This document shows, in pieces, positions 8,009 through 39,132 of a stretch of DNA of 64,000 bases. A model generated the notes under the pieces. The model was not told where the DNA came from, made no database searches, and saw only the letters and a list, made by a program, of their open reading frames with translations. Position numbers and translations under genes: made by a program. Numbering within the stretch: position 1 is the stretch's first letter; the number at the start of each line of letters is the position of its first letter. Source of the DNA: Trichobilharzia szidati (Eukaryota; Platyhelminthes; Trematoda; Strigeidida; Schistosomatidae); the NCBI GenBank assembly GCA_944472155.2, contig OX235277.1, positions 15,758,804-15,822,803 on the forward strand, in the 5' to 3' direction.

Positions 8009-8363
8009 AAATGGATCCAGATAATTCTGCGCCAGTGTTTCTTCTTTTTTGTCTAAGTTTATAAAAGGGAATCATTGAATAAAATAAATTTTAGCAACTG
8101 CTAAAAACACTATATTGTTCAAAGTAGACGGCCGCTTCGTCTTCGTATACATGAACATAAAGTAGCCATCAAAATACATGATATCCACTCATTCATATCA
8201 ATATATACAGACAACCATGGACATCAACTCGACTGAGACAACGTTCAAATATTAGACAGATAAAACAGAAAGAACTGTATAGGATTTTCAGAAGCCTGAC
8301 TAGTATTTCAGTGAATCGTCAATGATCAGACACATCAACGCTGAAGATGTTGCCTAGTAGGGT

Positions 8364-8669
8364 TGTTGCGTGTTCTATTTGACTAAATGAGCGTACACGT
8401 ATTTCCTAGTACTTCTTCACGTTTATCAATGTGCGCAGACGTTGTGGCTACTCGACGCCCACAACGTAAAATCAGAAGGCACTTGTGAAGAGTATAATCG
8501 TGTATTATAGCCGTAGTCAAATTTCGAAAAATATGTATCAAGGTAACGTTCAACTGTAAATTGACAAATGTTTACGAAGTACATATAAAATCGATATGTG
8601 TAAACATATAATATGAGTATGCAAATTAAATTAAAAACGTATGTTTATAGTTGGTATAGGGGTACTACA
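8364..8669 (-). repeat. 3' LTR of the Gypsy element
   Basis: 306 bp, TG...CA in plus-strand view, aligned to 13315-13620 with a single difference. Flanked outside by GGGT. Confidence 0.95.
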
Positions 8670-8684
8670 TAATTCCCCCACCAG
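8670..8684 (-). other. Polypurine tract of the Gypsy element
   Basis: Minus strand GGTGGGGGAATT lies directly before the 3' LTR, the expected place for plus-strand priming. Confidence 0.7.
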
Positions 8685-9087
8685 AACACTGAAATATAAA
8701 AAAAATACATTTAAGTGTTCGACAATAAAATGCGTCAGCGTAATACGTAGCAGCGATAGTACATAGAAAGCGATTTACTAAGCTGAAAAAAATGAGCAAT
8801 TTAATGCGGTCAATAAGGCCGATAATAAATGCGATAATAAAAGAAAAAATAGGATTGATGATCGTGGTAGAATATATAAGGAATGATACAATCAGCCGGG
8901 GATCTGTAGTCTGTATACGGAAACGATACGTGAATATTAAGCGCTATATGATTAAATGTAATAATACAGGGAATATCGATGTTAAAATAGTAGTGACGTG
9001 ATTTACTTATGAAAATATTAATCAGTTAAATGAGTTGTTAAATGACAATTACGAATAAAGATAATAAAAATGAAAATTCGTAATAAG
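8685..9087 (-). other. Untranslated region between pol and 3' LTR
   Basis: About 400 AT-rich bases with no env-like frame on the element's strand. A 69-residue plus-strand frame at 8792-9001 has no recognisable feature and is antisense to the element. Confidence 0.6.
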
Positions 9088-12000
9088 TTATATATTGATG
9101 ATTTGTACATAACGTTTAGGCCAATGAACTCTCCTACCAGAGCGTGTAGTTTTCATAGGTTTCTCTGGCGACGTTGAAGCTTGCGTGGATGTAGATGTTG
9201 GCACGTCGTTCAGCTGGTCTTTATTGTTGGCTTCGAAATCGTCGATGAATGCTGGTTTGACTCTGTCGACACTGATGGCTTCTGCTTTATTCAGTCGTTC
9301 TATCGTGATAACTTTATCATTTCTATTTAGAACTTTGAATGGGCCATCATAAGCGGGTTGAAGTGGCCGTTGTACACCCTCTCTCCTGACGAAGACGTGA
9401 GTGCAATCTGTCAGTTGTGGCGGGATGTATGACGTTCGTTCCTGCTGGCGTGGAAGTGATATCTTGAGCTCGTTCATGTGTTGTTTTAGCTGGTGCACAT
9501 AACCAGTCATATCTTGTGGAACTTGGTTACCTGGGGTGAAAAATTCTCCTGGTAGTCGTAATGTTGTTCCATAGACTAGTTCGGAAACACAGCAGCCAAT
9601 ATCTTTCTTTAGAGCAGATCGTATACCAAGCAGTACCAGTGGGAGTTTGGTTGACCAGTCGTTTTGAGTCAAAGAAGCAGCGAGCGCAGGTTTGAGTTGT
9701 CGATGAAGGCGTTCAACCATGCCGTTGGAACTAGGATGGTAGGCGGTTGTTCGTATTCGTTTGATGCCCAGTAATTCAGTTAGCTGTTGAAAAAGTCGGC
9801 TTTCAAACTGAGCACCTCTGTCCGTAGTGATAATGGATGGGACACCAAAATTAGCTATCCAGTTTTCGAGCAAAGCTTTAGCTACCGTTTCAGCTGAGAC
9901 GTCGGCTATTGGAACTGCTACAGGCCAACGAGTGAATCTATCGATGCAAGTTAGAATATAGTTGAAACCATTGGAAGGAGGTAGTGGACCAACTATGTCT
10001 ACATGTATATGTTCAAATCTAGAGTCAGGGTTAGGAAAGCGACCAAGTGGTGCATTGGTATGACGGTTGATTTTGACTCTTTGACAAGACAAGCAATTTC
10101 GTGTCCACTTCTTAACATCGCTATTAATGTTCGGCCATATAAATCTTTCTTTTATTAGTTTGATAGTAGCGCTGACACCGGGATGAGACAAGTTATGTAA
10201 CTTCTCGAATACTGTATGTTTCATAGCTGCTGGAACGAAGGGTCGATATTTACCTGTAGAGGTGTCGCAGATTATTTTTGTCGTGCCAAAAGGAATTGCG
10301 TCTAGCTTTAAAGATGTTGTTTTAGAAGACATGATCTTTTTTAGTTCGGCATCATCTCGTTGTAGGTTTGAGAGACGTTCGTAGTCGATGTCTGGGCATA
10401 CAATGTTGTCAATGTACACACGTGATAAAGCGTCTGCCACTTCATTGTTTTTACCCTTTACGTGTCGCAGATCGGAGGTGAACTGAGATATAAACTCGAG
10501 GTGTCGTAGTTCACGCGGAGAGTAGTTATCCTGTTTTGCTGATAAGGCTTTCGTTAGAGCTTTATGGTCTGTAAAGACAGTAAAAGTTGTACCTTCCAGC
10601 ATATGTCGGAAGTGCTTGATTGCTAAATAAACAGCCAATAACTCTCTACCAAAAGTGCTATAGCGGCATTGAGTAGGATTCAGTCGTTTCGAAAAGAATG
10701 CTAGGGGTTGCCATTCGCCGTGTACTTGCTGTTGTAAAACCGCCCCGATGGCAACGTCTGAAGCGTCTGTCATGAGAGACAGGGGGGCATCATTTTGGCG
10801 TCTGACTAGAAGTGTCTTGTCATTTAACAATTGTTTGACATTTTCGAATGCTTTAACAGCTTCTGCGGGCAAATGGAATGAACGACTATGTCCACGTAAG
10901 CAATCGGTTAATGGTTGTAAAGCTTTGGCACAGTTCGGTATAAAACGCCGGTAAAAATTAACGAGACCCAAAAATCGTCGTAATTTCTTAAAAGAATCTG
11001 GTAATGGATAATCTTTGATAGCTTGTACGTCATCAGGGACTGGTCTGATTCCTTGGCTATCGATTAAATGACCGAGAAATTTCAGGGAGGTCTTACCAAA
11101 TTCGCACTTGTCTAAGCTGATAGTCATTCCGTATTGGTTCAGTCTTTCAAACACTGTCTTCACATGTTTCAAATGCTCGGCTTCGTCTGCACTTGCAATT
11201 AGTAAGTCATCGATGTATGCGTAGACGAAAGGGAGACCACGGAGTACTTGGTCAATTAGGCGTTGGAATGTCTGAGCGGCGTTCATAAGTCCGAATGGCA
11301 TGCGTACGAATTCATATAAACCGAATGGTGTGGTAATGGCAGTTTTCGGAACGTCATCCGGGTGGATGGGGATATGATGATACGCTCGGACGAGATCGAT
11401 TTTAGAGAAAACTTTCACATTTGGTAAGTTGCTAGCAAAATCGTGGATGTGTGGTATTGGGTATCTATAAGGTACCGTTTGCTTGTTTAAAGCTCGATAA
11501 TCACCACATGGCCGTATTTCACCAGAAGACTTTTTGGGTACCATGTGAAGCGGTGAAGACCAAGAGCTGTTGGACGGTCGAATAATACCAAGCTCTAGCA
11601 TTTTATCGAACTCTGTTTTGGCAATTTTAAGTCGATATGGGTCAAGGCGTCGTGGACGTGCAAAAACTGGCGGTCCAGTGGTTTTAATATGATGAACCAC
11701 ATGATGCTTCGGTTCTGTTCCTCGAAAAGAAGGTTGTAAAAGGTCAGGGAACTGATTTACCAAATTGGTATATGGAGATGCTGGTGTGCGTGTGACCATC
11801 AAGTTCAGTGATGATGCACGGCTAATCGTACCAGCAATGTACGTTTTATTGAGCGAATCTATTAGCTTGGGGCTTATCGGATCAACTAACAGTTTGTGTT
11901 GCTGCAGAAAATCAATACCGAGGATTGAGGATGGGACGTCTGCAATGATGAAAGACCAAGTGTAGGTATTCTTTAAACCAAAATCTAAAGTCATTCGTTT

Positions 12001-12159
12001 ACTTCCATATATAACAATACTGGACTGATTAACAGCTTGGAGCGTAACTGCTGGGTCAGGATGTTGACGTTCCTGTGTAGACGGAGGGAGAACACTCACC
12101 TCTGCTCCTGTGTCAACTAAGAATGTAGTACCGGTATTTTTATCTGTTACATAAAACAA
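9088..12159 (-). CDS. pol: Gypsy pol: protease, RT, RNase H, integrase
   Basis: 1023 residues from the first Met after the gag stop; coding in fact continues in frame from gag. Protease: FLVDTGAEV with Asp16. [12 protein letters not shown] (Asp255) and YIDD at 315-318. RNase H: TDAS (Asp465), RELLA (Glu506), TDHKA (Asp531). Integrase: H655-x3-H659...C689-x2-C692 zinc module, then D721, D780, E816, a D,D(35)E triad with [11 protein letters not shown]-terminal chromodomain is not evident. All catalytic residues and the frame are intact, unlike every other element here. It copies element RNA into DNA and inserts it. Confidence 0.95.
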
Positions 12160-12282
12160 ACGACTGTTAGATCGTAGGTTGCCAACAGTATTTTTTACAC
12201 ATGACGATATATCTTTTGGTTTAGTCTGAAAATTGCAAGGTGAACGGCACCGTCGTGCTTTGCTTCCATAACTACGGTGATA

Positions 12283-13002
12283 CTAGCAAATATTATCGCG
12301 TTGTCGTGACGTGCTAGGGGATCGAGAAAGACGTCGACGGGACGAGCTTCTAGAACGGCTTGGTTGTGTGCGTGTGGTCAGTTTTGCTAACTGACTCAGT
12401 AAGGTGTCGACTTTGTGTTCTAGAGTCTGTATTCTATCATGAGTGTCTGGTATTCTGCTAGTGGAAGCGACAGATTGAGGTGTTGACCTCTCGTACATGC
12501 AATCCGCGATTTCGGTGAGCCTTTCTATGTCAATGCCGTCGTCTCCGAAAGCAAGAACCTGCTGGATGTTTGCGGGAAGTCGTCGTAGCCATATTTGGTA
12601 AAAGAGACGTTTATCGATTTCTCTTCCAGCAACTAGGCTTTGCATATGTCTCATGAGTTGAGATGGGGTTTTATCACCGAACTCAACATTGCTTAACAGG
12701 CGATCGAGTGCTTGCCTATCTGAAAGCGAAGTGCATCGCAGTACCTCTTCCTTCAACTTGTCGTAAGGTGCTTCCGTGCTGGGTTGAACGATGTATTGCC
12801 GTACCTGCTCGGCGACTTCGTCTGGTAGTACTGTACTCAAAATGCCAAATTTAGCTGTCTGTGACGTGAGCTTATTGCTAGCCGTATAATGTTCCAGTCG
12901 TGCAAACCAAAGATGAGGGTCTCTGGGCTTAAAAACTGGTACAGTAAGAGAGATAGTACTAACAGATCCCAGCTCTAAGTTATCAGAGGTATTGGAAGAC
13001 AT
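12283..13002 (-). CDS. gag: Gypsy gag, ended by TAG inside its zinc finger
   Basis: 239 residues. A capsid-like domain spans about residues 15-165 (VPVFKPRDPHLWFARLEHY, QIWLRRLPANIQQVL). An Arg/Ser-rich tail (about 210-236) precedes DNIC, then TAG at 12285-12283. Past the stop the same frame reads YH, then ARRCRSPC, so the cysteine before the stop is the first ligand of a C-x2-H-x9-C-x3-C (CHCC) finger as in CsRn1-clade Gag. The stop sits where a tryptophan would be usual (TGG to TAG). It is either a fresh nonsense mutation or a readthrough signal. Gag and pol share one frame. Confidence 0.88.
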   Translation of the reverse strand: MSSNTSDNLELGSVSTISLTVPVFKPRDPHLWFARLEHYTASNKLTSQTAKFGILSTVLPDEVAEQVRQYIVQPSTEAPYDKLKEEVLRCTSLSDRQALDRLLSNVEFGDKTPSQLMRHMQSLVAGREIDKRLFYQIWLRRLPANIQQVLAFGDDGIDIERLTEIADCMYERSTPQSVASTSRIPDTHDRIQTLEHKVDTLLSQLAKLTTRTQPSRSRSSSRRRLSRSPSTSRQRDNIC

Positions 13003-13144
13003 GTTACAATTCGTAAAAAAAATGGTTTAAGAGTAGGAAAATGGCAAAATTTGTGCACAATAAGAATATTGCAAAACAGAAAAAATGCAATGCAGGTGCT
13101 TACCACAAATTACTGCAGGTTGTGCTATGAGCAAACACAAAAAT

Positions 13145-13215
13145 GAGTTCGAATTGTTTAATAAATATATAGATCCGCGTGAGTTCGAATTGTTTAATAA
13201 ATATATAGATCCGCG
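13145..13215 (-). repeat. 36-bp tandem duplication in Gypsy leader
   Basis: The 35-base string starting GAGTTCGAATTGTTTAATAA occurs at 13145-13179 and again at 13181-13215, unit length 36. It lies between the primer site and gag, upstream of the gag start. Confidence 0.9.
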
Positions 13216-13296
13216 AAAGTTAGAGTTTTAATAATCCAGTAAGTGTAATGACGCGTCGAGGTCAAAAAGTTGTCGTCATCGGAGTCAGCAATTTGT

Positions 13297-13311
13297 CGTC
13301 GGGGCTCACCA
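13297..13311 (-). other. Primer-binding site of the Gypsy element
   Basis: Minus strand TGGTGAGCCCCGACG begins three bases inside the 5' LTR. From memory, eukaryotic tRNA-Trp ends CGTCGGGGTCACCA; the complement here has one extra base. Matching it to a fluke tRNA-Trp gene would settle the primer. Confidence 0.6.
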
Positions 13312-13314
13312 ATT

Positions 13315-13620
13315 TATTGCGTGTTCTATTTGACTAAATGAGCGTACACGTATTTCCTAGTACTTCTTCACGTTTATCAATGTGCGCAGACGTTGTGGCT
13401 ACTCGACGCCCACAACGTAAAATCAGAAGGCACTTGTGAAGAGTATAATCGTGTATTATAGCCGTAGTCAAATTTCGAAAAATATGTATCAAGGTAACGT
13501 TCAACTGTAAATTGACAAATGTTTACGAAGTACATATAAAATCGATATGTGTAAACATATAATATGAGTATGCAAATTAAATTAAAAACGTATGTTTATA
13601 GTTGGTATAGGGGTACTACA
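13315..13620 (-). repeat. 5' LTR of the Gypsy element
   Basis: 306 bp; the only difference from the 3' LTR is at its inner terminal dinucleotide (plus strand TA instead of TG). Confidence 0.95.
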
Positions 13621-14880: not shown

Positions 14881-14989
14881 AGTGAGCATCTAGGTGAAAC
14901 GATGAATTCACTATTGAGAGTATAGGTCTCACTGGGCAATTCTTTTTATTCCCTTATTCTTTAAATTTTTTTGTGCGCTCACGATGTGG

Positions 14990-15484
14990 AGAATGAACGC
15001 GCCTACAAGTCACAGCAATAATTTATCGATGGTATACAACATTTTGATGTTTTGAGGTTTACAAACGTCACATGCATTTTGTACGCCCTATTTGCATAGA
15101 ACGTTCTATTTTGTGAAAGACGTCATTTTGAACTCACACGATCAAAAATATTATTGAAATGAAAACATTACCATAATATCTTTCTCTCTAAGTTGTTTGT
15201 GGTTTCGTGTTGACGTGAATCTTGTTTTCTTGTCACTGCGACAGAGATTGCTGTCAGACTGATTGTAAAAATAGTAACTAAACATGAGCAAGATGAAAGT
15301 CAACTATGTAGCAGATGACATTTCTGAACAACATTCTGAAAATTTGCTTTGTATTATGTTTAAAGATTTCTTTGTTTTGATTATATCTGCTTTCTGCTGA
15401 AAAATGAAATTTTATTGGTTGCTTAATTTGAAAACAAAACTATTTAAGGGAGGATTTCGATCATTTCTGTCTCTGAGACGAAAT
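14990..15484 (+). repeat. Upstream region of the MEG, repeated elsewhere
   Basis: 15090-15370 matches 36890-37250 inverted, and 15290-15400 matches 780-880 inverted. It precedes the signal-peptide exon and so should hold the promoter and 5' untranslated region, though I cannot place a transcription start. Confidence 0.6.
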
Positions 15485-15548
15485 ATGCTTTCCACTAATT
15501 TGTTGGCTATTAGTCTTTCTTTTTTCACTGCTCATATTCTTGTTCACG
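15485..15548 (+). CDS. MEG exon 1: signal peptide
   Basis: ATG at 15485 (an in-frame upstream ATG lies at 15404) gives [20 protein letters not shown], a typical hydrophobic signal sequence, then His and the first base of a Gly codon before GTGAGT at 15549-15554. Phase 1 donor. The exon and donor are conserved in the inverted copy at 641-767. Confidence 0.75.
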
Positions 15549-18500
15549 GTGAGTATAACAATATTCTAAATGTTTATATTGCTCGATTACTTTCCACAAA
15601 CGTTTGCTTGTGAAGACGTTTACCATTCCATAACTGATTAAAATCATAGTTGAAATCAAGAATTAGAGACAATCCATAATAATTGGAATGCATCTATGAA
15701 TTGTGAATAGAAATGAGTAAAATATGCAAGGGTCAAAAAATGTATTTTCAAATACAATCAGTTCAAGTGTGTTCTGTGATCTCGTTCAATCATTCATATA
15801 CGCTTCATTGTAGGAAGTGGTTTGGATCGTAAGTTGAACACTGTTTTGTATTATAATAATTATTCATTTCTCGCTACAAATTACTCCTTGTTATCAGGTT
15901 GAGACTGGAATAGTTCTAGTTCAACTCACAAAAACTAAAACGAAGAAATAATTGATTATAACAAATGAAACTGAATACATATGTAACAGACACGTTGAAG
16001 GAAATAAACATATTCAGATGATTACAGTCAGATGATTACAATGACAGTCAAATTTATGCTCGTATGCTTATATTATAACAACAGAAGGCAAGACACGGAA
16101 GCACAGGTGTATTTTCCATTGATCAAACCTCAGTATATAAAAATGTATGTAGTCCACATTCTTCAACTAATCCCTAAGCGCATGATATGAGTTTACCTCA
16201 AATCACACGCAATAAAACCTTTAAAAATATATATAGCATTTTTTGTTAGTGCAGTATATAACTGTGGGAACAACAAGTAGAGCGTTCAAATAGATATGTT
16301 GTATTATGTTGCTAATACGCATTGAACTGTTGTAATATGTGAGAAAAATATTTCCTTCCCACACATTGGCTATATCGCACTACCACAATATCACATTAAA
16401 AATGTATGTTATGCATACAACGGAAACGAATACTTGCACGAATGACTGGAGTCCTTTGTCAACTTCGTTCTCCTATGATGTGTCATTCAACCAGAATAAA
16501 TGTGACTCTATTCATTTTAGATTGCACATTCAACTCAGAGATATTCAATCTGGGTATATAATTTTTGGCAGGCTCTAAAAATATAATCAGCGAACTATAT
16601 GAAAAACTATAACACCACTTTCCACAGTATTTATCTTATAAATCTTCTTCAGCTGAAACTATGTTGAGGATAAGTGAGTGACGTTTATCGAATATTTCAT
16701 CTAAGGCTTTCTTGTGGTTATTAAAGAAATATATGTCAGCAATAACCATCAAGGATATCCAAAGATAGAAAATATCATTTTTGCGGTTCAGAGAAGGGAT
16801 TTATCAGTCGTCGAAACTTGTCGTCATTGAAAGAGAGACATCTTTTTGTCTCTTGATTATGCATTGATGATAGGCGGTTCTGTCTTGCAATAACACACAT
16901 GTGTGTGAGACACTGTGTCATTATGAATTTAGATAACTGGTCGACTTTTGAGAAGACTACTGTTGACAGCATATCTCATCTGAATTATGCGTAAGGCGAT
17001 TACAAGTTCCTTTATATTCTGAAAACACCGCCATATTATGAGAATGAAGTGAGTAAATCACACCAATTTGACAACGAAAAAAGAAAGGTTCTCTCACTCG
17101 CTACACATTTTTACATAGAAGCGGAAAAGTTTTTTGAATGTAAGTCCACACATCATCTGTAAAATGTTTTTAATTCGGGTTTTACACAATAAATTCTTTG
17201 AACTTGTCAACATCAGTATTCTTTCTGACACTGATTTCATTTCGTTCCTCGCATATGCTAAAATAAATTTTCGTGGCTAAATTGCTAAATCTTCTGCCGT
17301 GTGCTTGAAAATCTCACTTATTCTCCCTTTGTGAAATCAAATATGGCATGTATTACCTCATTAGTTCAGTGAGTTTTGTATGAAACAGGCAACTGCGTTA
17401 AGTCGAAATAAGTATGAAGTAACTGGTAGTAGATAATCGGTGTTTGCGATTTTCTAGTTTGCAAGATCTGCAAATAAACAACAAGGGATTTAAATTTTAG
17501 TTTGATAGAGATAAATGATTGAACGATTTGCTTTATTTTGTTTTGAGGGACCGCGTAATTAAACGTCTGTAAGCATGCATGGATTTAAGTTTTCTAGAAT
17601 AACTTTGAACAATTAAATCATTTGATGATGAGCCTCTATAAATAAATTTTTGATTTCGGTACATATATCCTGATAGAAATGTTACCATTCCCATATGGCA
17701 ATCATTTGTACCAGAAGCTAGTATTACTTCTTGATATTTAATGGCTCACAAGACCTTAATAAGAATCTGACTTGCATTCATGATGTCATCTGTTAAGAAA
17801 CCTTATAACATGATTCGTTATAAATTATTTAAATTAATCCCAGCGTCTTAAGATAATCAAAACAATAATTTCCACAGATGCTCGGATTAATTGAAATAAT
17901 TTATAATGAATCAATATGACCCGACACTCAAATTATTCCAGGAAGTTCGTAACACATACGGCCTAGAAACCTCTAATGACATGATGTTGTCATTGTGTTA
18001 TCTCTTCATTCTAGAGTCACTCTGAGGGCATATCATTTACTGTCCGAACAAGTAGGCACAATTTGTAAGATTGAAATGTTGAATCGTGGGTAACTGGTAG
18101 CTTGATATAAAATTGCTGTGTAATGAAGACAGAAACGGGGTCTTATATAAATTATTGCATAGAAGTAAGACCGTGTGAAAATTTTGTTCTTTTCAGGTCG
18201 AAAAGAAGGTGAGTTTATGTGTCTGTCTTCTCCTTGTCAATGGTATGCTGCACAATACATCATTGTTTTTGGTACATATATACTGATAGAAATGTTACCA
18301 TTCCCACATAGCAGTCAATTTTATCACAAGCTAGTATTACTTCTTTATATTCAATGGCTCAAAAGACATAAATAACAATATAGCTTGCATTCAGGATTTC
18401 GTCTGTTAGGACATGATAATGTCATTATTATTCTGCGCTCGAATTATTCCAGGAAGTTTGTAACACCTACGGCTTAGAAACCTATAATGACATGATGTTG

Positions 18501-21500
18501 TCATTATGTTATGTCTCCACTCTAGAGTCACTCTGAGGGCATATCACTTACTGTCCGAACAAGTCGGTAACAATTTGTTAGGCTGAAATGTTGAATCGTG
18601 GGGTAATTGGTAGCGTGATATAAAATTGCTGAGTAATGAAGACGGATAAGGTGTCTTCTATAAATTATTGCATAGCGATTAGACCAATTGAAAATTTTGT
18701 TCTTCTCAGTTGAAAAAGAAGGTGAGTTTATATGCCTGTCTTCTCCTTGTCAATGGTATGCTGCACAATACAGTTCATCACAGTAAAAATGATTGTCCGT
18801 TAGAGTAGTAAGACCCATCACTCATACCGGAAATATGTAAATGATTACTACCAATCAAATCAAGAGATGGAAAATAATGGAATTATATAAACGAACTGCA
18901 AAAGTTGTGTGAGTACCTCGATATGATTATGAACAATAAATAGTGCTCGAAACGGCATCAGGAAATTTCACTGTATAACACTGTGTGACTTAACCAAAAT
19001 AAATTTTATTCGCAACGGAATTCTACTCCGCCACAGAGCACACGTTTTATTCTGAAATCCATGTTACCTCAATCCTGTCTTCACCTAAAATTCTGTGCTG
19101 AGACTCCATTCGTGAATCCATTGGTGGCCACCTTTGCCTTACAGATGTTGAATGAGAGGTATACATGTTTTCATCTGTGCACTTCGTATTTATGAAGCGC
19201 CTGTAAATATTCTTTACGCACAACTTTGTTGTAAGCCACTACAAAGTTTGAATTTAATGCAAACATGTGGATGATATTCGAGGCTGTGTTGTACGATGAT
19301 CATCCATTATATTAGATAGTTGGAGGCAATCGGCAGGGAACCTTGGACCTAGCTTTCGCATTGGTCGACAATCCATGACATCTAATTCATTGGCAAACCA
19401 TGACATTATGATTAACTTGATGGCAGACATACAGTAGCTGCTGCTTTAAGGACACAGACAGCCATTCAAACTAATTCATCTATTAAAGGCTGCTTCCTAA
19501 GCAATAATTTCTTGACATGAATTTCGACGGAAAAATAAGAAGTTTGTCTGATCCGAGTAATAAATTTGCGTGACATATGTGGACATTCACAGCAAACACT
19601 TAATTATTCTGCACTTTTATCTAGATGACGACAGAGCGTGAATTAATTTAATATATTTGAATAGCGGAAGAATGACAAATGTACTAGTTTAATATTAAAT
19701 TAATGTTTATTTTTTCTATGACTCTTATCAAATGGTTACGAGATGAACGAGCGTCGGTGGCACAGCGGTTAGGACTCCCGTTGACCATGCACATGTTCCG
19801 GTGTTCCATCCCCTCCCGACGCACAGCCGATATCAATGGTCGGCGTGCAAAATTAAGCTACTGATATCACATGCTGAAAATTCCATACTTGTACCAAAAA
19901 TACGGTGTGGAATCAAGATATAATTAAAAATAAAGATAAAAATTAGATTAACAATTGTAACATTCATTTTCCATGATGACAAAGATAAATCAGTAGAAAC
20001 TAAGGCTAACAATAGCTAGGGACGATGTAAGTTGTTAAATAGTAAGGATTGAAAAGGAATGACGACTTTACAGAAATTACATCACCATTGCAAAACAGAC
20101 GAGAATGCCAAATAAGAGGTGAACCAATGGCGTCAGGCTGTAAGGTAAGGGGAAGAAGGAAGTTGATGGAACTGTCACTAGGTAAAATGTACCTTCTTTC
20201 CAAAAATGATCACTAAAGCAAGCTCAATATAATGACAAACAATACATGTAACCCTTACTGATGTCACTATTAGTTCCTACAAGTTATCTATGTCGTCATA
20301 AAAAAATGCATTTTCAAATTCGTAGTGTAATTTATGTTTTTATATATTTCATCATGTAACCAGTTGAGAAAAATCATAGAAAAAAAACCTGATTCATATT
20401 ATGCTGACACATTTTTCGTTCTTGACTCACTCAAATGTGTTGTAATAATTCATGCTTTCTCACCTTCTATATAAATGTGTGTGATAATTACGTTTTTGAT
20501 GAGAATATTCGAATAAGTTGTGCAGATTTGTCACACTTTCAAGACAAGACACACCTTATAATAATGAACAAAGAAAATCGTTTAATTTCATCTAACTGAA
20601 GCGTAATGTTAACTGTCGTACTTCGCAGAGAAAAATTTGTTTCCATTGTATGTCTTCACATCAACTCAATGTAGTTTGTCACTCATTATCTAACTGCAAA
20701 ACAGATGAAGACTGTCCAATACATACTGAACTGAATGCTGACTGATCATTTTAAGCACAACGGTTTCTAACTGCTATTGATTATTTTAAACAATATTATC
20801 ATTAAACAGTAGTCTTACATGAACCACATTTCAATTTTGTTATCAATCATTGAAATTACTTTTGCTGAAATGCTGAAGAATATCCAGAGGATGTAACGGA
20901 AGGTAAGTGTTTCTGAAATTTTTCCAGTACCGTCGTTATAAATCCAAACATATGATGTGAAAAATGCATAAAGCGTTGTTGTGCTCAACTCCCTTTCGCT
21001 GTGAATTTTCGCCACCTGAAAGTATTCTTTGAAACACAATAATTCAAGTTTTGATGATTTAAACTATGACACGTGCAGTAGTGCATTGTTTATTCATGTG
21101 AATCCGGTATTCTTATTAGCAACAGTAGTATATTTATCTTGAAAAGTTACAATCAGCTCATATTCACTCGAATTCTTCGCAATATGATCACTTTAATCGT
21201 AAGCTGAGGAATATGTTTCGAATGTAATCATCTTTCTATAGATACAGTTGTTATAATTAGCTGAGTGATGGCGAAACAAGAAATAATTGCCTGTGAATAG
21301 TTATGTTAGAAAAAACAATGGAAACATCCTAAGCAGTCTTTATGCTCCACTTCGATGCCAAAAAACAAGTAACCATAGCAATAAATGAAAGATCTATTCG
21401 CATATGCTTTATAAGTAAACATTATAACAATATTCTGTGTGAAGTAAAAGCTATGAAGTGTTCAGTGATTATCCTTGAGAAGAATGATTATTGATTCAGA

Positions 21501-24500
21501 GGTGAACACAGTGATGCGAAATTTGTGAGCAGGATTTCTTCATACTTGCTTCCTTTTGACGTCGACATTTTCACTTGCTGTGAATGGTGTCATATTCAAA
21601 TGATTCAAAGCCGATCAACAATTGTTGAGGTGAATTATAATGAATCATTTTATTATCTACAGATTATGTTCAAAAAAGTAAGATTTCTAGAATTTAAATG
21701 GGGCCTTCGGTTCAGTTAAAAGTATATAAAGTGATGAAAATAAGTAAAAATGATTATGTTCGGCCTACTCACTGTGCGAACACTGAATTTGTGAAGTGTA
21801 TTACAAAATCTGCAAAATAGTCAAAATTTTTACGGTTCAACCGTGGATTATGCATGAATTATTTGACATGCTGTCTGTGCTCCATGACGTAGGTAGCGAA
21901 AATTACAAACACACCATATTCACTGGGATTCTTAATACCATACTCGCTGGGTAATTTCTTTCGGGATATATCATAATTTCACAGATGCACCTGTTCAGTC
22001 ACATTTTATACATGACATAATGGTTAGATATAAAAAGAAGTCAAGTCTTTGTGAATACATTGGAAAGGAAATGGAAATGTGTCCTGGAGAATAAATATGT
22101 CATTCGGAGATTAGCGGACGAACAATCATGGCGATAAATGAAAGATGCTTTTAATTAAGCTATTTAAATAATGCGCCTTGCCACAGAACGTTTCTCCATT
22201 AAATCTTATTTCTGCAGATTTTATCGGTTTTACTTGAGAAAAATGCTCATGGATATATAGGGGAGTAGGATTGTGTGTAAATTAACCTGATGAAAACCGT
22301 ATCATGGAATCCTAAATAAACATGATGTATTCAACTGGAGTCAATTTTGTAACATCTCTGTCTTTGTGTGATGTAAACAGAGGATGGCGCCATTAAAGTA
22401 TAGCGTTTTGAATTTGATATCTGCATATTCTGAGTACATTCACTGTTACAAATACTGTAACTAGCATATGAACGTTTACCATATACGTCTAATTTTATAC
22501 TCAGAGGTGGAAGGTAAATCATCTTTTTACTAAAATCATAATATGTTTTCACAAGATTTTCTGGAATAATTTAGAGAAGTGAATATCAACCTGGATAACT
22601 GAAGATGAAACTGAAACATACTTCACGGACAGTTGTGACGTGGTAAACATTTAAATGAGCAGTGAAACAGTTGATTCAAAGTCATGATGAGATTTTTACT
22701 AGACGCTCTAATTTGCTCCACGCCCGAGCTCTTGTCAAATGTGATATGTGTTGAATCCTTAAATTTGTTATCTTGCACAACAGTCTATAGTCAGATAAGG
22801 ATTTGCGATGGCGTCACATGAAACTGGATTATAATTCATTCTATAATCTAGGGTTAATTGATGAATAAAGATTACAGAGATTTTTTGCCTGAAGAGTTTT
22901 AAATAAATAGAACCTAAGCAATTTATGATGTTCAATCAAAGAAAAGAAGATAGAACAACTCAGTTGCAGTTTATCAAAGCAATTGCGAAAAATGCTTTCA
23001 GTGGAATAGTGTGCAGAGTCATTCACCAATCTGTAGTTTATCCATATGGTCAATTCTATATAAGTTATAATTTTGTGGTTGCGATTCAGTCATATTCAGT
23101 CCTCCAAAAGCTACTCTGAGTGAAAAATTATTTGTGAATTTTCCAGTCTTCTATTCCAATGTAATAAAATTTATCGAATCCGACCAATTCCACAAATTTA
23201 TTTGATGATGACATTATGATGACATCTGAATATTAGTTATCATGAGTAAGTACTTTGTAATTGTTAATTTACACTCTACAAAAATGAATGAACTAGAGAT
23301 GTATGGATATAAGCTGTTATAAGTTGATATATAAAAGTGTTTTACATACTATATGGGTGCTGTTGATTTCACTTTTGTAATGAAACCATACTAGATACGT
23401 ATTATCACAAAGCTTCACCTAAGCACATGAACATAGTTATATTGGTCACCCTTTATTCTTCGTCATCAGGTTATGCGAGCATCATATCAGAATTTTAATT
23501 CCACCGATAATAAATGACTTTACACCTATAAATTTTGCCTGTATTGATGTGTATATAATGGGTCATAGACTGAATATGTTCTTTTTTTCTCTTTGAAGAA
23601 GAATATAGTGAGTCATAATATATTCCAACACATCGTCTTCATTGACTAAGTGGGTAAAAATCTATCTCTTGTCATTTTGCTTGAGTGTGTATGATCTCAG
23701 TCTTCGTTGATTCCTATTCTTGGATGCTTTCCAGAAGAAAAAGCTACACAAATGATCAAATTTGAAATATTTTAGACTTTTATATCAATGTTAACTAAGA
23801 GCAGACATTTTAGAAATGTATTTCATCAACACACTCTTCCTGTGAAGTAGAACTAAATGCATTTTACTCTTGTTGTTATATAGGAAATAAACGTAAGTTC
23901 GCCATAGTATTGGTTCACAGTATCTCAGATGCTTTCACAAAGTTAAAATATAAATACATTTCTGATTTCACGATAGGTGTGGTGGTTGCAGATTTATGTC
24001 AAAGAAATCTCATTTCGAAGATTTCAGTCCTAATTTCACTAGACAAAATTTTCGGTATAAGTATCTATGTGTATTTGTATTTGTGTAGAAACGTGTCAAG
24101 GTTTGATAAAAAATGACTTCGTTCATATTCCATGCCAACTGCTGGAACATCAATATGGACATGTTTGCTTAGAGTTCAATATTCAACATACATTTTTTAG
24201 TAAAGGGTTTCGTAAGATACTTAGTGGATCATAAATGCAAACTACAACTCGTTCAAGTTAACCACCAATAAATATGTTCACACCTCAAGGACATACCGCA
24301 AAAAATAAAGGTGACTGGGCAGATGAGAGAACGATGGAAGCTTATGAAAGTAAAGACTGACATTGATCAATTATAAAAATCAAAACTGAAACATTTTATG
24401 ATTATGTCGTGGAATGCCGATAAATTTAATTGTCATCAAACAATCGAAAATTTCAGGATTCCTCCACAGTAATATTATGAAATCCCCGCATACAAGATAA

Positions 24501-27500
24501 AACCAATCCCCATATAAACAGTGCATTATGTATCTAAGTTCAATTAGTGGTTAGTTAGGATTGAATATAATGCATGCTATTTGATCTGAAATTCAGAATT
24601 GGCATTTCTTCTTATCTAGCCCAAAGTAAGTAGATACTTGGTTGCTTTGAAAATACCACTCAGTAGTATTCTCCAGTCATTGGTGTCCATACCTTTCCCA
24701 TTTGTGTGGCAAAACACTCTGTTAAATGAGTCTCTCGAACCTTCATAATGACTGTATGGATGAAACATGTAGGTATAAAAAGTTTATGAGAAATCAATAA
24801 ATAATACGGTGAACACATATTTTGTCAGTACCATTAAAATGTCACATGAAAACGGAGTAACATTCAGCCATATTTCCCTGGGAGAATAAATTGTTCAAAT
24901 CAATGCTGAAATTCCTGAAGATCCAAAAACTATAAATTCTGATAGGATGAGAATTCAGAAAAGATAAGGAAAACAGATTTTTGATGGCTTTTTTAAAAAT
25001 TTCTTTAGTAGACATTTTCTGATAGATCAAACTTTCCTGCTTAGTATTTTCCTATTCATCGATTCTCTACTCTGAGTCCTCTCAAGTTGTATTCATCAGT
25101 TTTCATAATTTCATATGTTGAATGACATAAATCAAATAAGAGAGAAGTTACTGAAATATGATTTTAGTTCTCTGACTACTATTCACAGAGACATTTTTAC
25201 CTACATAGCTTCATATCATTAGAGTCGAACTGATGTCACAAGACCGCTAAACAGAAGGAGGATTTTTCTGCATCAAATTTTCTACTGCGTTTTCGCAAAC
25301 ACATATTTTGAAACAATATGAATTTGATTAAAAGATGATTCTAGCTCTCTGCTTATAGAATAATTGGTTTACTTTTGACTTGAAGGGAGAGCCCGTGAGT
25401 AAATGAATAAACTGTTTTATGAATAAGATCAAATGATAGTTTTTAATTTCGTTGCATTAGAGATTGCATGGTCACCTGTAGTGTGGACAGAAGTTTCTTT
25501 ATGGCTTCATGTTGTATATAATAAGACACTAAATGGTACCTTCAAAAGTACTGAATTAGCAGTTTAGGTCCATTTAGTCTGATAGGATTCTCTCATTGAA
25601 TAGGTGACATTATCGTACTGAACATATACTAGTAATTGTTACAAACTGTTTTCAAACTCTAGCTATATTTATGTCTTCACTGCTGCTCAGAAATCATTAG
25701 TGAGTTCTCACGACGATTAACTTTCTTATTTCAATTAATTCACTTTTATTAAAACCCCATGATATTGAGAGTTTGAACAAAATATTTATGAGATATGAAA
25801 CTTGACGATGAGTTTAAATATGCATAAATAGAAAGTTATCCTAACTGATGCCACGCAGTGTGATCTGGTGTTATCATTTATTCAAACAAATTTTTGCGAA
25901 AGCAACATCACATACTCTGTCTGAAATACATATGAAACACATTTATGCCCAAATTTTTAAAACTTTATTATTATGACACCTTATATTTCATAAAATAGAA
26001 GAAATCGGTGAGTTATTCAGATGACGTATTCAATTTTCATGCTGAAGTTACGTGGCAATATTTGCTGTATAATGTAGGTTGCAGTACGGCATGTATACGT
26101 TACACAATTCACTTGCCTTTAATTCTGTTGTCCACAGGGCTTTTAGTGATGTCTCCATTTCGTGCAGTATATTCATCTCTGATGTCCACCTCAAGACTAT
26201 TATTTGTTGGTGTTTTGCTCAATTATGTATCACTTGTTATCCTTTTAGTTCGCGAAACACAAATCACTGATAGTTTCTCGTAGTCACTTGAAGACATTAA
26301 AAATGCTAATAATTTCAACGCTCGTCTTCCATCGCAATCGCAAAGAAAGTTGGTTATAATAATCACGCCTGTATCAGTCCTATCTTCACTTCAAGTGCTT
26401 TACTGAGAATCTCGTTGAGAATTACTCTGCATCCTTCATCATAAGGTAGTCATTGTGTTGGTTGTATAATGGTTTCTCGCACTGCGCTCCATGTTGCTCA
26501 ATCAGTATTTAGATTACTTCTTAGTTGACGAGACCGAATGGATGAATTCCAAGGAGGTAGGTGATGGTTATTCTGGTCTGTTTCTTACGACGATACACTA
26601 TACTGTTTGTAGCTTCACGTTGATTACGCTGTCAATTTGCTCCTGGTTGTCGTCTGCATATTAACTATCTTTATCCGTTTCGTGATAAATCTATACGACA
26701 AAATGTAGTTTTCTCTGTGGTCTCAGGAGACCTATTATTCTTGAATACACCATGAAAATTCCGAATCATCAGGGTTATCTTGGTGCTCAAGTGAAGAGTG
26801 GATGATGATAGTCTTGCGTTTTGAGTGCTCCTACCAGCCGTCATCACCTACCGTTGTATCAAAGGTAAGCTTATAATATTCCTTGAAGTATCTTTTTTAT
26901 AGGATGACTTTGTTCATACGACATGACAGTGAATTAGACAAAAATGAAAAAGGATTTCATTTTGCAATACAGATAAAGGTAAGTAATCGAAACGAAAGCA
27001 TGAAAATGAAAGTTAATTTGAGTGCTCTGAGCATTCCATCCAAAACACCCTTTTGAATACATATCATTTTATGAACTTCACATGAAACTGCTAAAATCAC
27101 ATATCTGTATTATAAATTGTTGATGGCATCAACTAAATCCGGAAAGCAAAAACACGCTGTCTGTTTGGCTCTCAAGTTTTTTGGCTGCAATAATATTAAA
27201 TATTCAGAAAAACAGGTTGTAGTATTATTTTGCCATATCTTATTTAATTCTAAAGTATGATTACTCTGGTGACAAAAATGTGACAAATCCAAAGTGAAGT
27301 TAGTAAAGAGACTGATATATCAGTGATATTATAAAACCGTATATTTACATATATATATATATATAATCTTATACTCCACTCAACTCCTTGTTATTACTGA
27401 AGACAGTATAACTAGCTCTCAGAACTAAATTATCTAATGATCTCTGTATTTTAAATTGAAGACCTCGGTGAGTGACCTACTGCAAAATATTCGGCCAGCT

Positions 27501-30183
27501 TATGTCGTTATTTCCCTTAGAACAATATCAAATCAAAGCATGTATGAATCCATTAACATTCAAGCCCAAGAATACTGATCATTTTTCTGTATTACTGACC
27601 TTCATAATACAAAATGAAGAAATTTCACATGATGACTCCATTTTTACTTTCAAAACTTGTATTGACATTTTGCTTACTTTTCACTTTCCACCAACAACTG
27701 ATCATGTAAATAGAACAATGTCTAAGTAAGTCACAAGGTATCATAAGGCTAACTTACAAACCAATAATACTAAAATGATTTCGGACTTCACTATGTGAAT
27801 ATTCTAGCGCCATGAAAATTTAGTGTCAAACATTTTAATGACTGTATTAGCAAGTCCCTTATATCAGTCACTTCAGTGTGAACCTCGCTGATATAACCCA
27901 GTCTAGATAATTAAGTGCTAGACCCGTTTTAGCTTCAATAAATCAGAACCAGTGATTGGAAAAGATGAATAGCATTTGAAAATCTATTTCGAATTTTCTC
28001 AACAGGTGTGATTTCTCAAGGTGAACATTGTCTAAATTTATTGTGTCACCCTGTTAGCAATCACAGGGAAGGCTCGTTTGGATCATGCACATACATCGGA
28101 AGATACTTTTCATAAAAGCAAAATCTGTAGGGAGAGATGAAATGAGGCTATCCGTTTTAATAACTACGTGGAGAGAATGTTTTGTTCATTCATCAATGTT
28201 GCGTCGATGAACAAAGAAGTACATTCGAATTTGAGATGGCTATTGACAAAGCGTACGGTCAGCATCTGTCAAAATTCCTTATTTTTCTTTGAATCTATTG
28301 GACAATACACTAACTCTTCAGTTGCTTTAGTGCGAAACTCGAGCTCATCACCCACTTAAAAGGATTACAGTCTAACTAAAGATGAAAGAAGAGGATGAAT
28401 AGTACTTAATATATTTTTCTCAAACGGTTGATAGAGGAAGTAAGTTTCCACCCCATCATTATTGTACAGTCTTTGAGATGTTACCCATTGCAGATAGTTG
28501 AATGCTTCTAGAACAAGCACAACTCTACTACGTATATCCACGTCAATATCATATATGTCACAGATGGCAAGAATAAGACTTTATGTTACACAAATAATAA
28601 TAATTATTATTATTTCCTTTAGTTACTAGAGAAACATAGGGCTTCAGCCATGCGTCTCCATTGCGCTCGGTTCTCTGCTAGAGTTTTCACCTGGCTCCAA
28701 GTCTGCCCATACGCTTTGAATTCTTCTTCACATGATCTCCTCCAGGTCACCCTTGCACTGACAACCAACTCGCCGCTTCCCTTTCGGGTTCCACTCGAGC
28801 AATGGCTTGTCTAGTGATGTCACTTGCTGGTTTCCTCAGAGTGTGGCCAATCCATCTCCATTTCTTCCTGCCTATTTGTTTCACAATCGGTTCCTGGTTG
28901 GTTCGCTCCCAGAGATCTTTGTTGCTGATCCTTTCCGGCCATCTGATCTTGAGTATTGAGCGAAGACATCTGTTAGTGAAGGTCTGTAGCTTGTTTGAGG
29001 TGCTCTTTGTGACACGCCAAGTCTCTGATCCGTATAGTAGTACTGACTTCACACTGGAGTTGAAAATCCGGATCTTATTTTTGACGCTGAATGTTGTTGA
29101 CACAAATAATAATAGAGATGATTTGTGGCTCAGGTGTATGTTGTTATACAGTTGTGCTCTGTGATCTCGTCAGTTAAATGGCGATGTAATTGTCTAGAGG
29201 GATGGCAAGAATAAGACTTAATGTTGCATAAATAATAATACAGACGATTTGTACCTCAGGTGTATGTTATTATAAGGTTGTGTTCTTTGATTGCATCAGT
29301 TTAGTAGCGATGACATTGATTAGGGCGAAATTGAAAGCTCAGAAATAAGGCCAATCAAATCAGAGAACACAAACAAAGTAAAAGAATCACGTTTACAGTG
29401 AACCTTCCAGTATTGTAGCCTGTACACGACTCGCCTCGAGAAATAAATTAATCAAAACTGCATGCATCGATACAGTAATATAAATTCACATATATTTTTT
29501 CATCCATTTTGAAGCAGGAATCAGTTGATATTTTGAGTTTAGCTAACAAAGCCAATCATCGAAATCTAATTCAAAGTGACTTGATCACAATACACATTGA
29601 ACATCGACACATAATTTGTGAGGAGGTATTCATTATTGAAAGGTTTATAGTGATACTTCATGGTCAATAATATTGTACGGCTACCAAACGACTGTCCACA
29701 TTTCGAAATATTTTCAGTTCTTTACGCAAATGAGGTGCTCCTTATTGTTCACACATGTTGCGGAGATCACTTCCGCTTGAGAAAAGTTATGTTCTTTTGT
29801 GTGGTAGAGTTTTACAGTTTTATCTAACATATTATTTTCAACATGATATGCAACCTCTGTTATGAAGTAGACGACTTTTCATGCGTCAGTTTCAATGTAC
29901 GAGTTCCCTCTAGGGTGTTTGTAAGAATTGCAATTCAAAACAGGATACATTAAGTAGAAATATTTGTTGTTTATATTTTTCATGAATTGCTTATGTATCA
30001 AACTTTTGTAAAGAGACATTTGCATATACATTTATCAAAGGAGAGAAATATTTGTAATTTTGATTTACAGAAGGCCAGCAGAACAGCCAAAGAGGGGACC
30101 AGTGTTTCATAGCCTTCAACATGAAATATTTTTTGGTCAAACTGTCACTTTTTACAAGTGAAATTCACTCTCTTCTAAAATGA
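15485..30183 (+). CDS. Candidate micro-exon gene (MEG), whole locus
   Basis: Gene-level entry. A signal-peptide exon is followed by 16-17 tiny exons (6-27 nt) recognised by pyrimidine tract-AG and GTAAGT/GTGAGT-type donors. All have lengths divisible by three. Joined in order they are open only in phase 1, set by the 64-nt first exon; the other two phases hit stops at the third exon. Predicted product: a secreted, short, Lys/Glu-rich polypeptide of roughly 110-150 residues. Schistosome MEGs have exactly this design and yield variant secreted proteins by exon skipping. Introns hold a tandem duplication, SINEs and an SR2 copy. The end of the gene is uncertain: last good exon near 27.5-27.7 kb, possible terminal exon at 30071. 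I cannot assign a MEG family number. Confidence 0.7.
15814..15828 (+). CDS. MEG micro-exon 2 (15 nt)
   Basis: GAAGTGGTTTGGATC between 'cgcttcattgtag' and GTAAGT. Phase 1 adds residues G-S-G-L-D. Conserved with both splice sites at 360-374 on the minus strand. Confidence 0.75.
16653..16673 (+). CDS. MEG micro-exon 3 (21 nt)
   Basis: Follows 'aatcttcttcag' and precedes GTGAGT (16674). Phase 1 residues P-E-T-M-L-R-I. The other phases contain TGA, so this exon fixes the frame. Confidence 0.7.
17119..17139 (+). CDS. MEG micro-exon 4 (21 nt)
   Basis: Acceptor 'cacatttttacatag', donor GTAAGT at 17140. Phase 1 residues K-A-E-K-F-F-E. Confidence 0.7.
17830..17965 (-). repeat. Short dispersed element, related copy at 63329-63514
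   Basis: On the minus strand it shares 'gtgttacgaacttcctggaa' and 'taatttgagtg' with 63350-63380 and has a similar AT-rich end. It sits in an intron of the MEG. A partial copy lies at 18445-18490. At 63.3 kb the same sequence is flanked by 12-bp duplications, so it is probably a short non-autonomous mobile element. Confidence 0.55.
18197..18208 (+). CDS. MEG micro-exon 5a (12 nt)
   Basis: GTCGAAAAGAAG between 'gttcttttcag' and GTGAGT (18209). Phase 1 residues C-R-K-E with the preceding T. Confidence 0.75.
18710..18721 (+). CDS. MEG micro-exon 5b (12 nt, duplicate of 5a)
   Basis: TTGAAAAAGAAG between 'gttcttctcag' and GTGAGT (18722). Three base changes from 5a; phase 1 residues V-E-K-E. Splice sites are kept while the surrounding intron has diverged. 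Confidence 0.75.
19317..19400 (+). repeat. Fragment of a schistosome interspersed repeat
   Basis: 'agttggaggcaatcggcag' followed by 'ggaaccttggacctagcttt' resembles, from memory, a common schistosome SINE-like repeat. The same start recurs in the palindrome at 33589-33641. Confidence 0.4.
19751..19950 (+). mobile_element. tRNA-derived SINE-like copy
   Basis: GCGTCGG at 19751-19757 pairs perfectly with CCGACGC near 19816-19822, giving a 7-bp acceptor-like stem about 73 nt long. TGGCACAGCGG is a good A box and GTTCCATCC a degenerate B box. An unrelated body and an A-rich tail follow. It is unlike the 402-bp satellite monomer. Anticodon arm not convincing, so not a functional tRNA. Confidence 0.5.
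20888..20902 (+). CDS. Possible MEG micro-exon (15 nt, weak acceptor)
   Basis: AGGATGTAACGGAAG before GTAAGT (20903). The acceptor 'gaatatccag' has a poor pyrimidine tract. Open in phase 1 only (phase 0 has TAA). Kept as tentative. Confidence 0.35.
21663..21677 (+). CDS. MEG micro-exon (15 nt)
   Basis: ATTATGTTCAAAAAA between 'ttttattatctacag' and GTAAGA. Phase 1 residues D-Y-V-Q-K. Confidence 0.6.
22505..22513 (+). CDS. MEG micro-exon (9 nt)
   Basis: AGGTGGAAG between 'ctaattttatactcag' and GTAAAT; the donor is weaker than the others. Confidence 0.5.
23599..23607 (+). CDS. MEG micro-exon (9 nt)
   Basis: AAGAATATA after a very strong tract 'ctttttttctctttgaag' and before GTGAGT (23608). 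Phase 1 residues E-E-Y. Confidence 0.65.
23884..23892 (+). CDS. MEG micro-exon (9 nt)
   Basis: GAAATAAAC between 'cttgttgttatatag' and GTAAGT (23893). Phase 1 residues R-N-K. Confidence 0.65.
24620..24625 (+). CDS. MEG micro-exon (6 nt)
   Basis: CCCAAA between 'catttcttcttatctag' and GTAAGT (24626). Phase 1 residues P-Q. Confidence 0.6.
25386..25394 (+). CDS. MEG micro-exon (9 nt)
   Basis: GGAGAGCCC between 'ggtttacttttgacttgaag' and GTGAGT (25395). Phase 1 residues R-R-A. Confidence 0.6.
25691..25699 (+). CDS. MEG micro-exon (9 nt)
   Basis: AAATCATTA between 'gtcttcactgctgctcag' and GTGAGT (25700). Phase 1 residues Q-I-I. Confidence 0.65.
25999..26007 (+). CDS. MEG micro-exon (9 nt)
   Basis: AAGAAATCG before GTGAGT (26008); acceptor 'tatttcataaaatag' is only moderate. 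Phase 1 residues K-E-I. Confidence 0.5.
26838..26864 (+). CDS. MEG micro-exon (27 nt)
   Basis: Between 'gtgctcctaccag' and GTAAGC (26865). Phase 1 residues A-V-I-T-Y-R-C-I-K. The longest internal exon found. Confidence 0.5.
26973..26978 (+). CDS. MEG micro-exon (6 nt)
   Basis: ATAAAG between 'ttcattttgcaatacag' and GTAAGT (26979). Phase 1 residues D-K. Confidence 0.6.
27345..27366. repeat. TA dinucleotide repeat
   Basis: About ten TA units in an intron. A similar run lies at 62492-62510. Confidence 0.9.
27462..27467 (+). CDS. MEG micro-exon (6 nt)
   Basis: ACCTCG between 'ctgtattttaaattgaag' and GTGAGT (27468). Phase 1 residues D-L. Confidence 0.5.
27714..27725 (+). CDS. Possible MEG micro-exon (12 nt, weak acceptor)
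   Basis: AACAATGTCTAA before GTAAGT (27726). The AG follows 'catgtaaat', a poor tract. Open in phase 1; phase 0 ends in TAA. Confidence 0.3.
   Translation, partial: NNV
27790..28230 (+). repeat. Dispersed repeat, inverted copy at 61700-62245
   Basis: Matches the reverse complement of 61700-62245 ('cagcgaggttcacact', 'gaaccagtgatt' and 'ctacgtggagagaatg' segments). No coding capacity of its own. Confidence 0.65.
28588..29114 (-). mobile_element. SR2/RTE-like LINE, 5'-truncated, with target duplication
   Basis: ACACAAATAATAATA occurs at 28588-28602 and 29100-29114, a 15-bp target duplication around about 500 bp of minus-strand LINE. The 3' end is an ATAATAATAATTATT-type run. The empty site is seen in the adjacent diverged copy of the host sequence at 29202-29340. 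Confidence 0.85.
28747..29103 (-). pseudogene. RTE-type reverse transcriptase C-terminal end
   Basis: 118 residues with [16 protein letters not shown] near 19-34, then [25 protein letters not shown] and [11 protein letters not shown], the conserved end of schistosome SR2/RTE proteins. A frameshift after RQAIA derails the tail. The 5' part was lost at insertion, as usual for LINEs. Confidence 0.85.
29202..29340 (+). repeat. Tandem duplicate of the SR2 target region
   Basis: 'atggcaagaataagactt', an AAATAATAATA site and 'gatttgt..ctcaggtgtatgtt' repeat the sequence at 28563-28602 plus 29114-29200 without the LINE. Confidence 0.75.
30071..30183 (+). CDS. Possible terminal exon of the MEG
   Basis: After 'taattttgatttacag', phase 1 is open for 36 codons ([10 protein letters not shown] start) to TGA at 30181-30183. 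The length and openness fit a last exon, but one acceptor and an open frame are weak evidence and it lies 2.3 kb past the last candidate micro-exon. Confidence 0.3.
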
Positions 30184-36884: not shown

Positions 36885-37265
36885 TAGAAGTCATTCGTTT
36901 TATTTGTTGATTCGATTTTCAACACAAGAAAGCCGTCTTTCATCATTACATTAAGCAAATTGTCAGAATGTTGTTTAGAAATGTCATCTGCTACATTTTT
37001 GACTTTCATCTTGCTCATGTTTATTTACTATTTCTACAATCCGTCTGACAGCAAGAAGAAAACAAGATTCATGTCAACAAGAAACCATAAACAAGTTAGG
37101 CAGAAAGATATTATTGTAATGTATTCATTTCAATATTATTTTGTATCGTGTAAGTACAAAATGGTGTCTTACACAAAATAGAATGTTCTATGCAAATAGG
37201 GCGCACAAAATGCATGTGGCGTTTGTAAACCTTAAAGTATCAAAATGTTGTATACAATCGATGAA
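36885..37265 (-). repeat. Third copy of the MEG upstream region
   Basis: Reverse complement of 14990-15370, without the signal-peptide exon. Confidence 0.65.
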
Positions 37266-37559
37266 TTATTGCTGTTCCTTGTTACCTCGTTCAGTCTCCA
37301 CATCATGAGCACAGCTTCTTATTAGGATTTAATAAGCAGAATATATATACATGTACATATCAAGTTGAATAATCATGCATACAGGATAACAGGATTTACC
37401 TCCGCATCTTGTGTACTCATTGTTTTCAATGAAAAGAAAACTGCAGTGATACTTTAAGGAATAAAGACAATCTAGATTTGAATCAAGTGGTAATAATCCG
37501 GAAGAGGAACCAATTTGAAATGAAACGCTGTATATTTCGGTTTATTTTAAGAGCAGAAC

Positions 37560-39122: not shown

Positions 39123-39132
39123 CCAGCTGGGA

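Follow-up and report, generated by a model that had tools for sequence, protein, structure and literature searches.

A 64,000-nt stretch of Trichobilharzia szidati DNA (C7:15,758,804-15,822,803, the whole of which was analysed and is called the window here) very probably harbors a real protein-coding gene of the micro-exon gene (MEG) type, made up of a signal-peptide-like exon, 17 phase-1 micro-exons and a C-terminal exon, and this gene is one of at least 40 amplified copies. An earlier note, made from the sequence alone, had proposed a schistosome MEG architecture for this locus. The signal-peptide-like exon and the run of about 17 symmetric phase-1 micro-exons, now backed by paralogues, agree with that proposal; its single gene, however, is a member of a large cluster.

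All exons of the window copy (copy B) lie on the plus strand. Exon 1 (15485-15548, 64 nt) runs from an ATG to a GTGAGT donor, exactly as the earlier note had it, encodes a hydrophobic signal-peptide-like segment and sets phase 1. It is followed by e2 (15814-15828, 15 nt), e3 (16653-16673, 21 nt), e4 (17119-17139, 21 nt), e5 (18197-18208, 12 nt), e6 (18710-18721, 12 nt, a young tandem duplicate of e5), e7 (20879-20902, 24 nt), e8 (21663-21677, 15 nt, from the blind scan described below and the paralogue comparison), e9 (22505-22513, 9 nt, donor GTAAAT), an extra micro-exon candidate (23237-23245, 9 nt), e10 (23599-23607, 9 nt), e11 (23884-23892, 9 nt), e12 (24620-24625, 6 nt), e13 (25386-25394, 9 nt), e14 (25691-25699, 9 nt), e15 (25999-26007, 9 nt), e17 (26973-26978, 6 nt) and e18 (27462-27467, 6 nt). 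The chain closes with a candidate terminal exon (27521-27729), whose phase-1 frame has 68 codons to a TAA, with an AATAAA ~210 nt further 3'. All 17 internal exons accepted here are symmetric, with lengths of 6-24 nt, a 4-nt asymmetric candidate having been rejected partly for its asymmetry. Tandem acceptors with AGs 3 bases apart occur at e4 (17116-17121, TAGAAG, which permits an 18-nt form) and at e10 (23596-23601, GAAGAAG), and could add or drop one codon. The translated micro-exon chain is a charged, Glu/Lys-rich stretch. By hydropathy alone, the top 15-residue window begins at residue 6, in exon 1, and a second, lower peak lies near residue 131, within the candidate terminal exon. The signal peptide would lead a gland cell or surface cell to secrete the product, which may then be exposed to the host.

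The exon lengths were assessed by a blind scan of 15,400-28,000, in which the reading frame is ignored and each GTAAGT or GTGAGT donor is paired with the best-scoring upstream AG (acceptor at most 24 nt upstream, score at least 0.5). On the plus strand, 15 of 21 donors are paired with an acceptor, and 14 of the 15 distances are multiples of three, the property claimed earlier for every exon; the fifteenth is 4 nt (binomial P of at least 14 of 15 at 1/3 chance, 2.2e-6). The minus strand of the identical stretch gives 3 pairs, 1 of them a multiple of three, and seven control strand-stretches pooled (~74 kb) give 9 pairs with 5 multiples of three. Among 300 order-2 Markov sequences simulated for each of three settings neighbouring that of the scan, multiples of three number 1.2, 0.5 and 0.4 on average and at most 5, 4 and 3; the window has 14, 11 and 11. 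Joined together, the 14 blind exons contain no stop in the 37 complete codons of phase 1, the phase set by exon 1, so that the open chain described in the earlier note holds. The other two phases contain 3 stops in 51 and 5 stops in 37 codons, and translation of the joined chain confirms that both stop in exon 3. Random intronic pieces of matched lengths (those of the 17 internal exons first proposed, two of which were later altered or dropped) are stop-free in 0.6% of 20,000 draws from random places and in 0.8% of 20,000 draws taken after an AG. An array of splice-like sites that arose by chance and was selected by eye would draw on dinucleotides as common as AG and GT, and the 27-nt and 12-nt exons first picked do fail; set against the blind scan, the simulations and the paralogue comparison, this explanation has practically no probability left.

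Forward joins between exons were counted on an earlier exon set (15-nt e7 and e16 included, 23237-23245 excluded): 164 of 171 create no stop, and all 7 exceptions begin at e4. In a spliced precursor, the phase-1 micro-exons (2-8 codons) would act as cassettes joined in transcripts, and nearly every cassette could be dropped or duplicated with the frame unbroken.

Paralogues in the surrounding DNA permit a comparison exon by exon. The 254.8 kb fetched gives, with the window, 318.8 kb of continuous sequence (~130 kb on the left and ~125 kb on the right). It contains three near-complete paralogues: F (C7:15,826,731-15,839,101, plus strand), G (C7:15,919,993-15,905,251, minus strand) and H (C7:15,687,208-15,671,502, minus strand). 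Retention of splice sites was tested on 15 exons (e6, e16 and 23237-23245 excluded). Acceptors are retained at 15/15 exons in F and at 14/15 in both G and H, and donors at 15/15 in each; intronic AG is retained at 70-80% and intronic GT at 66-79% in the three paralogues. Only e11 loses its acceptor, in G and H, where an AG 3 bases downstream takes its place; the exon is then 6 nt long and the phase is kept. Wherever an exon differs in length in F, G or H, the change is by 3, namely at e11 and at e4 (24 nt in two of the three G copies). Phase 1 of the joined chain is free of stops in the window copy and in F, G and H, whereas the other phases contain 1-6 stops each. The splice sites of e2 are kept in F, G, H and two truncated copies, A and D; those of e3 in F, A and three copies each in G and H; those of e4 in F, G, H and A; and those of e5, like the acceptor and donor of e7, in F, G and H. 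The extra exon at 23237-23245, which comes from the blind scan, has a weak acceptor; its AG, GT and length are kept in F, G and H, where it reads open in phase 1 (by eye from the alignment).

The paralogues also remove candidates. The 27-nt e16 (26838-26864) is rejected because F, G and H never retain its two splice sites together (0/3). A 15-nt form of e7, queried in the earlier note itself, is rejected: its AG is absent in F and H and present in G. The exon is there, with a length of 24 nt better fitting F, G and H. A separate last exon of 12 nt (27714-27725), likewise queried, falls within the candidate terminal exon and is absorbed into it. Among the 18 exons placed after exon 1 in that note, these three are altered and the other 15 stand at their proposed lengths, while one 9-nt exon (23237-23245) had been missed. 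The 4-nt candidate at 17365 is rejected mainly because it is asymmetric, and also because F is without its donor.

The terminal exon (27521-27729), located as the first acceptor scoring at least 2.5 downstream of e18, is a moderately supported prediction. Its acceptor, frame and stop are retained in paralogue F, with 91.7% identity and a ratio of non-synonymous to synonymous change (dN/dS) of 1.2, and in two near-identical copies as well. Outside the satellite, frames at least this long follow 7 of the 223 plus-strand acceptors of the window (the candidate included) and 15 of the 225 minus-strand acceptors; on the latter strand the count covers the frames of a gypsy-type element. G and H carry ~196 bp more at the 3' end, with a candidate terminal exon of their own of ~24 codons (by eye from the alignment).

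Copies of the gene are concentrated on C7 in an assembly of 1.114 Gb and 907 contigs; the genomes of Schistosoma mansoni, S. japonicum, S. haematobium and S. mekongi are given as 391-406 Mb in the part of the source consulted (PMC10683246). A genome search with exons 1-2 and their flanks finds at least 45 matches, all on C7 at 14.53-16.99 Mb, of which at least 40, that of the window among them, reach 599 bp or more and cover both exons; with 40 of 126 first-look candidates scored and copy D not listed, these are lower bounds. For the e10-e11 region, at least 39 long matches, counting that of the window, fall on C7 at 14.11-16.97 Mb, in addition to one on C1 and one fragment, again as a lower bound (40 of 61 candidates scored). 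The cluster therefore comprises at least 40 copies of exons 1-2 and at least 39 of the middle region within 2.9 Mb of C7. Among the matches listed, 18 pairs of exons 1-2 and e10-e11 lie 5-13 kb apart on one strand; the unpaired matches are truncated copies or matches whose partners were left unscored. Of the 39 other long matches, 20 were read at exon 1: the donor is intact in all 20, and the exon measures 64 nt in 19 of them. In 20 further copies read at e10-e11 (19 on C7, one on C1), the AG and GT of both exons are intact in 19/19 C7 copies, one of which has the donor GTCAGT in this region. The C1 copy (L066, C1:140104730-140105216), the sole long match of the middle region outside C7 among the 40 of 61 scored, no longer has a donor at e10 or an acceptor at e11.

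Some copies are plainly incomplete. Paralogue A, on the minus strand, is truncated; its right part lies in the window (33-894, exons 1-2) and its e3-e5 to the left of it. Further truncated copies in the flanking sequence are D, I and one at C7:15,654,332 (minus strand). Exon 1 is 63 nt, one base short, in A and also 63 nt in D, the e5 acceptor of A is lost, and one further copy (L051) has an exon 1 of 60 nt. Together with the broken splice sites of the C1 copy, these defects fit the idea of duplicates in decay, be it the window copy or most of the cluster, with exons real by descent and a protein no longer made. So do the matches without a partner within 5-13 kb (22 of 40 for exon 1 and 21 of 39 for the middle region, partly because only the best 40 were scored in each search), a dN/dS close to 1 and the uncertain terminal exon. 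Against decay, the window copy, like F, G and H, has its phase-1 frame and accepted splice sites intact, and exon 1 keeps its 64 nt in nearly all copies read, which makes this an unlikely account. Solitary pieces of the upstream region (14974-15379) and the 3' region (27540-27988) also recur in the cluster, and one upstream piece without exons lies at 36923-37313 on the minus strand; they are perhaps remnants of recombination.

Within the coding gene proposed here, cassettes have been duplicated. Exons e5 and e6 lie in direct repeats (~17641-18259 and 18254-18772) of ~0.5-0.6 kb that are 84-88% identical, each unit holding one micro-exon, with three base changes across the 12 nt; F, G and H have a single e5-like exon at this position. 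G and H each carry the e3-e4 block in triplicate and I carries it twice, and the triple blocks differ in their exon letters (H, C7:15685400-15681400; G, C7:15918400-15915100). The triple block is a cassette gain within a gene. At e10-e11, three copies share 99% identity with the window, yet at exons 1-2 they share 90-94%, and four others (exon 1 matches at 16136151, 15202724, 14634799 and 16697587) are 94-96% identical at exons 1-2 and 81-82% at e10-e11. This discordance suggests that segments have been exchanged between copies. Over the micro-exons, dN/dS ranges from 0.83 to 1.94 across six pairs and, when e3 and e4 are left out, from 0.85 to 2.36 across five, values that are noisy owing to few changes and to some arbitrary choices of paralogue at e3 and e4.

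Local duplication, inversion and the exchange of sequence among copies most likely amplified the family within ~2.9 Mb of a single chromosome. Variety would come from the gene copies, from cassette gain (the e5/e6 duplication and the e3-e4 repeats) and perhaps from skipping. We tentatively propose, as one possibility among others, a megabase diversity locus of at least 40 mosaic MEG copies that exchange segments, gain and lose cassettes by whole codons, and yield variants by choice of copy and cassette. In the var and VSG antigen arrays, a gene whose protein is secreted or exposed is present in many divergent copies. The many divergent copies are shared with the cluster on C7, whereas here diversity lies also in exon cassettes and there is no known switching. 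By analogy, such a diversity locus might, equally tentatively, match the protozoan antigenic-variation arrays in scale while being made of exons of 2-8 codons.

As defined in the sections of the MEG literature consulted, most internal exons of a MEG are symmetric and at most 36 nt long, the signal peptide comes mostly or wholly from the 5' exon, the flanking exons are longer, the coding length lies mostly in micro-exons, and these are differentially spliced (PMC4671649, PMC4350168). The signal-peptide-like segment is encoded by the 5' exon here too, judged by hydropathy only. The flanking exons are a 64-nt coding 5' exon and, in the window copy and F but not in G and H, a 209-nt 3' exon. With reservations, the window gene appears to have the main structural features of a MEG, the length of the flanking exons and the coding share of the micro-exons being less clear. 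It resembles the superfamily, as far as the consulted parts of the sources describe it, in having a 5' exon for the signal peptide, many symmetric micro-exons in a long series, a small product that is secreted (predicted here), surroundings rich in mobile elements and a rapidly evolving protein (PMC10526429, PMC4671649, PMC4350168). The difference is one of scale: the largest tandem MEG cluster in the table consulted has 6 genes (MEG-2, S. mansoni), and of 22 tabulated members of MEG-17 only 3 are clustered (PMC4350168), as against at least 40 copies in 2.9 Mb here. In the part of the MEG literature surveyed, no MEG cluster of 40 copies is reported. Many micro-exons are also found in MEG-8 and MEG-9, where meg-8.2 has 17 exons, 15 of them micro (PMC12998952, from the portion consulted), and the MEG-8/MEG-9 family is recorded in Trichobilharzia in the part of PMC5825161 consulted; in contrast, the terminal exon proposed here starts on the second base of a codon. 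In the consulted portion of the report on S. mansoni meg-8.2, an exon is skipped in only 1 of 10 cDNA clones (PMC12998952), which counsels caution against presuming heavy skipping here; by analogy, skipping may be rare. Some Trichobilharzia MEG transcripts are not near any S. mansoni MEG, according to the part of PMC6362228 consulted.

Several points weigh against a protein-coding MEG. The model rests on genomic sequence, and we infer transcription and skipping from it. Retention of splice sites is modest in significance (P 0.002-0.043 each), and the paralogues are not independent. The copies read for exon 1 and for e10-e11 are mostly the best-ranked matches, and the sample therefore leans to intact copies. 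The rejected 4-nt candidate at 17365 retains both splice sites in G and H. The 3' end is the weakest part of the model, because long frames are not rare, the terminal frame of a third copy, one of the window's type, contains a 1-nt deletion, and G and H are without the terminal-exon acceptor; if the terminal exon is real, micro-exons make up under half of the coding length (~201 of 471 nt, ~43%, summed from the exon list). A dN/dS near or above 1 fits diversifying selection and also relaxed constraint.

Searches with the translated chain are also negative. The phase-1 chain, whose comparison with known MEG proteins the earlier note had proposed as a check, has no match in a protein database with schistosome proteins, by a search that needs shared five-residue words, similar lengths and annotated models, and in which S. 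mansoni entries were possibly absent or missed (none is among 120 gypsy matches listed) and near-source records possibly excluded. None of six published MEG motifs, as patterns written from the consulted part of PMC10526429, occurs in the window chain. Nothing was found in Pfam, in the PDB (best E 0.1) or, for peptide strings, in paper texts. In the absence of both protein similarity and published motifs, the gene is not assigned to a numbered S. mansoni MEG family. The missing protein homologue, the high copy number and the solitary 5' and 3' pieces would suit a spliced non-coding RNA, or a repeat unit with splice-like sites kept for other reasons. Either is highly improbable, since all but one of the 15 blind pairs have a length divisible by three, four copies have an open phase 1 and stops in the other phases, the lengths in F, G and H change by 3, and the matches sit in one cluster rather than being dispersed.

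Other elements share the window with the MEG-type gene. A gypsy-type long terminal repeat element occupies 8363-13620 on the minus strand, with a pol frame at 9088-12159 and a gag-like frame at 12283-13002 (DUF7041). It is flanked by two 307-bp repeats that are 99.7% identical, and the insertion is therefore probably young. Its pol matches are to five Schistosoma species (61-65%), cestodes (52-56%) and one further record (71%). Minus-strand frames at 2910-5212 resemble pieces of a non-LTR retroelement; in Pfam, 4199-5212 gives only a sub-threshold endonuclease/reverse-transcriptase match, and 2910-3485 gives none. A satellite at 39031-58900 consists of 47.8 copies of a 402-bp unit (99% matches), with 48 type I hammerhead ribozyme matches on the minus strand and, by eye, a transfer RNA-like stretch in the unit inspected. 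Its orientation flips near 58.25 kb, after which two plus-strand hammerheads follow. The W26.2/W27.2 units, at 399-403 bp in the part of the source consulted (PMC8490949), are of similar length. Comparison of the satellite with plasmid sequences gives no match, which is uninformative here.

MEGs are candidates for roles in immune evasion and blood processing, and the clusters tabulated for human schistosomes are small. At least 40 copies with alignable introns amount to dozens of natural replicates of the same micro-exons. Such replicates make it testable how micro-exons are defined, gained and lost, whether cassettes are under selection, and whether the copies are active singly or together. 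Genes of this kind may be missed by standard gene models.
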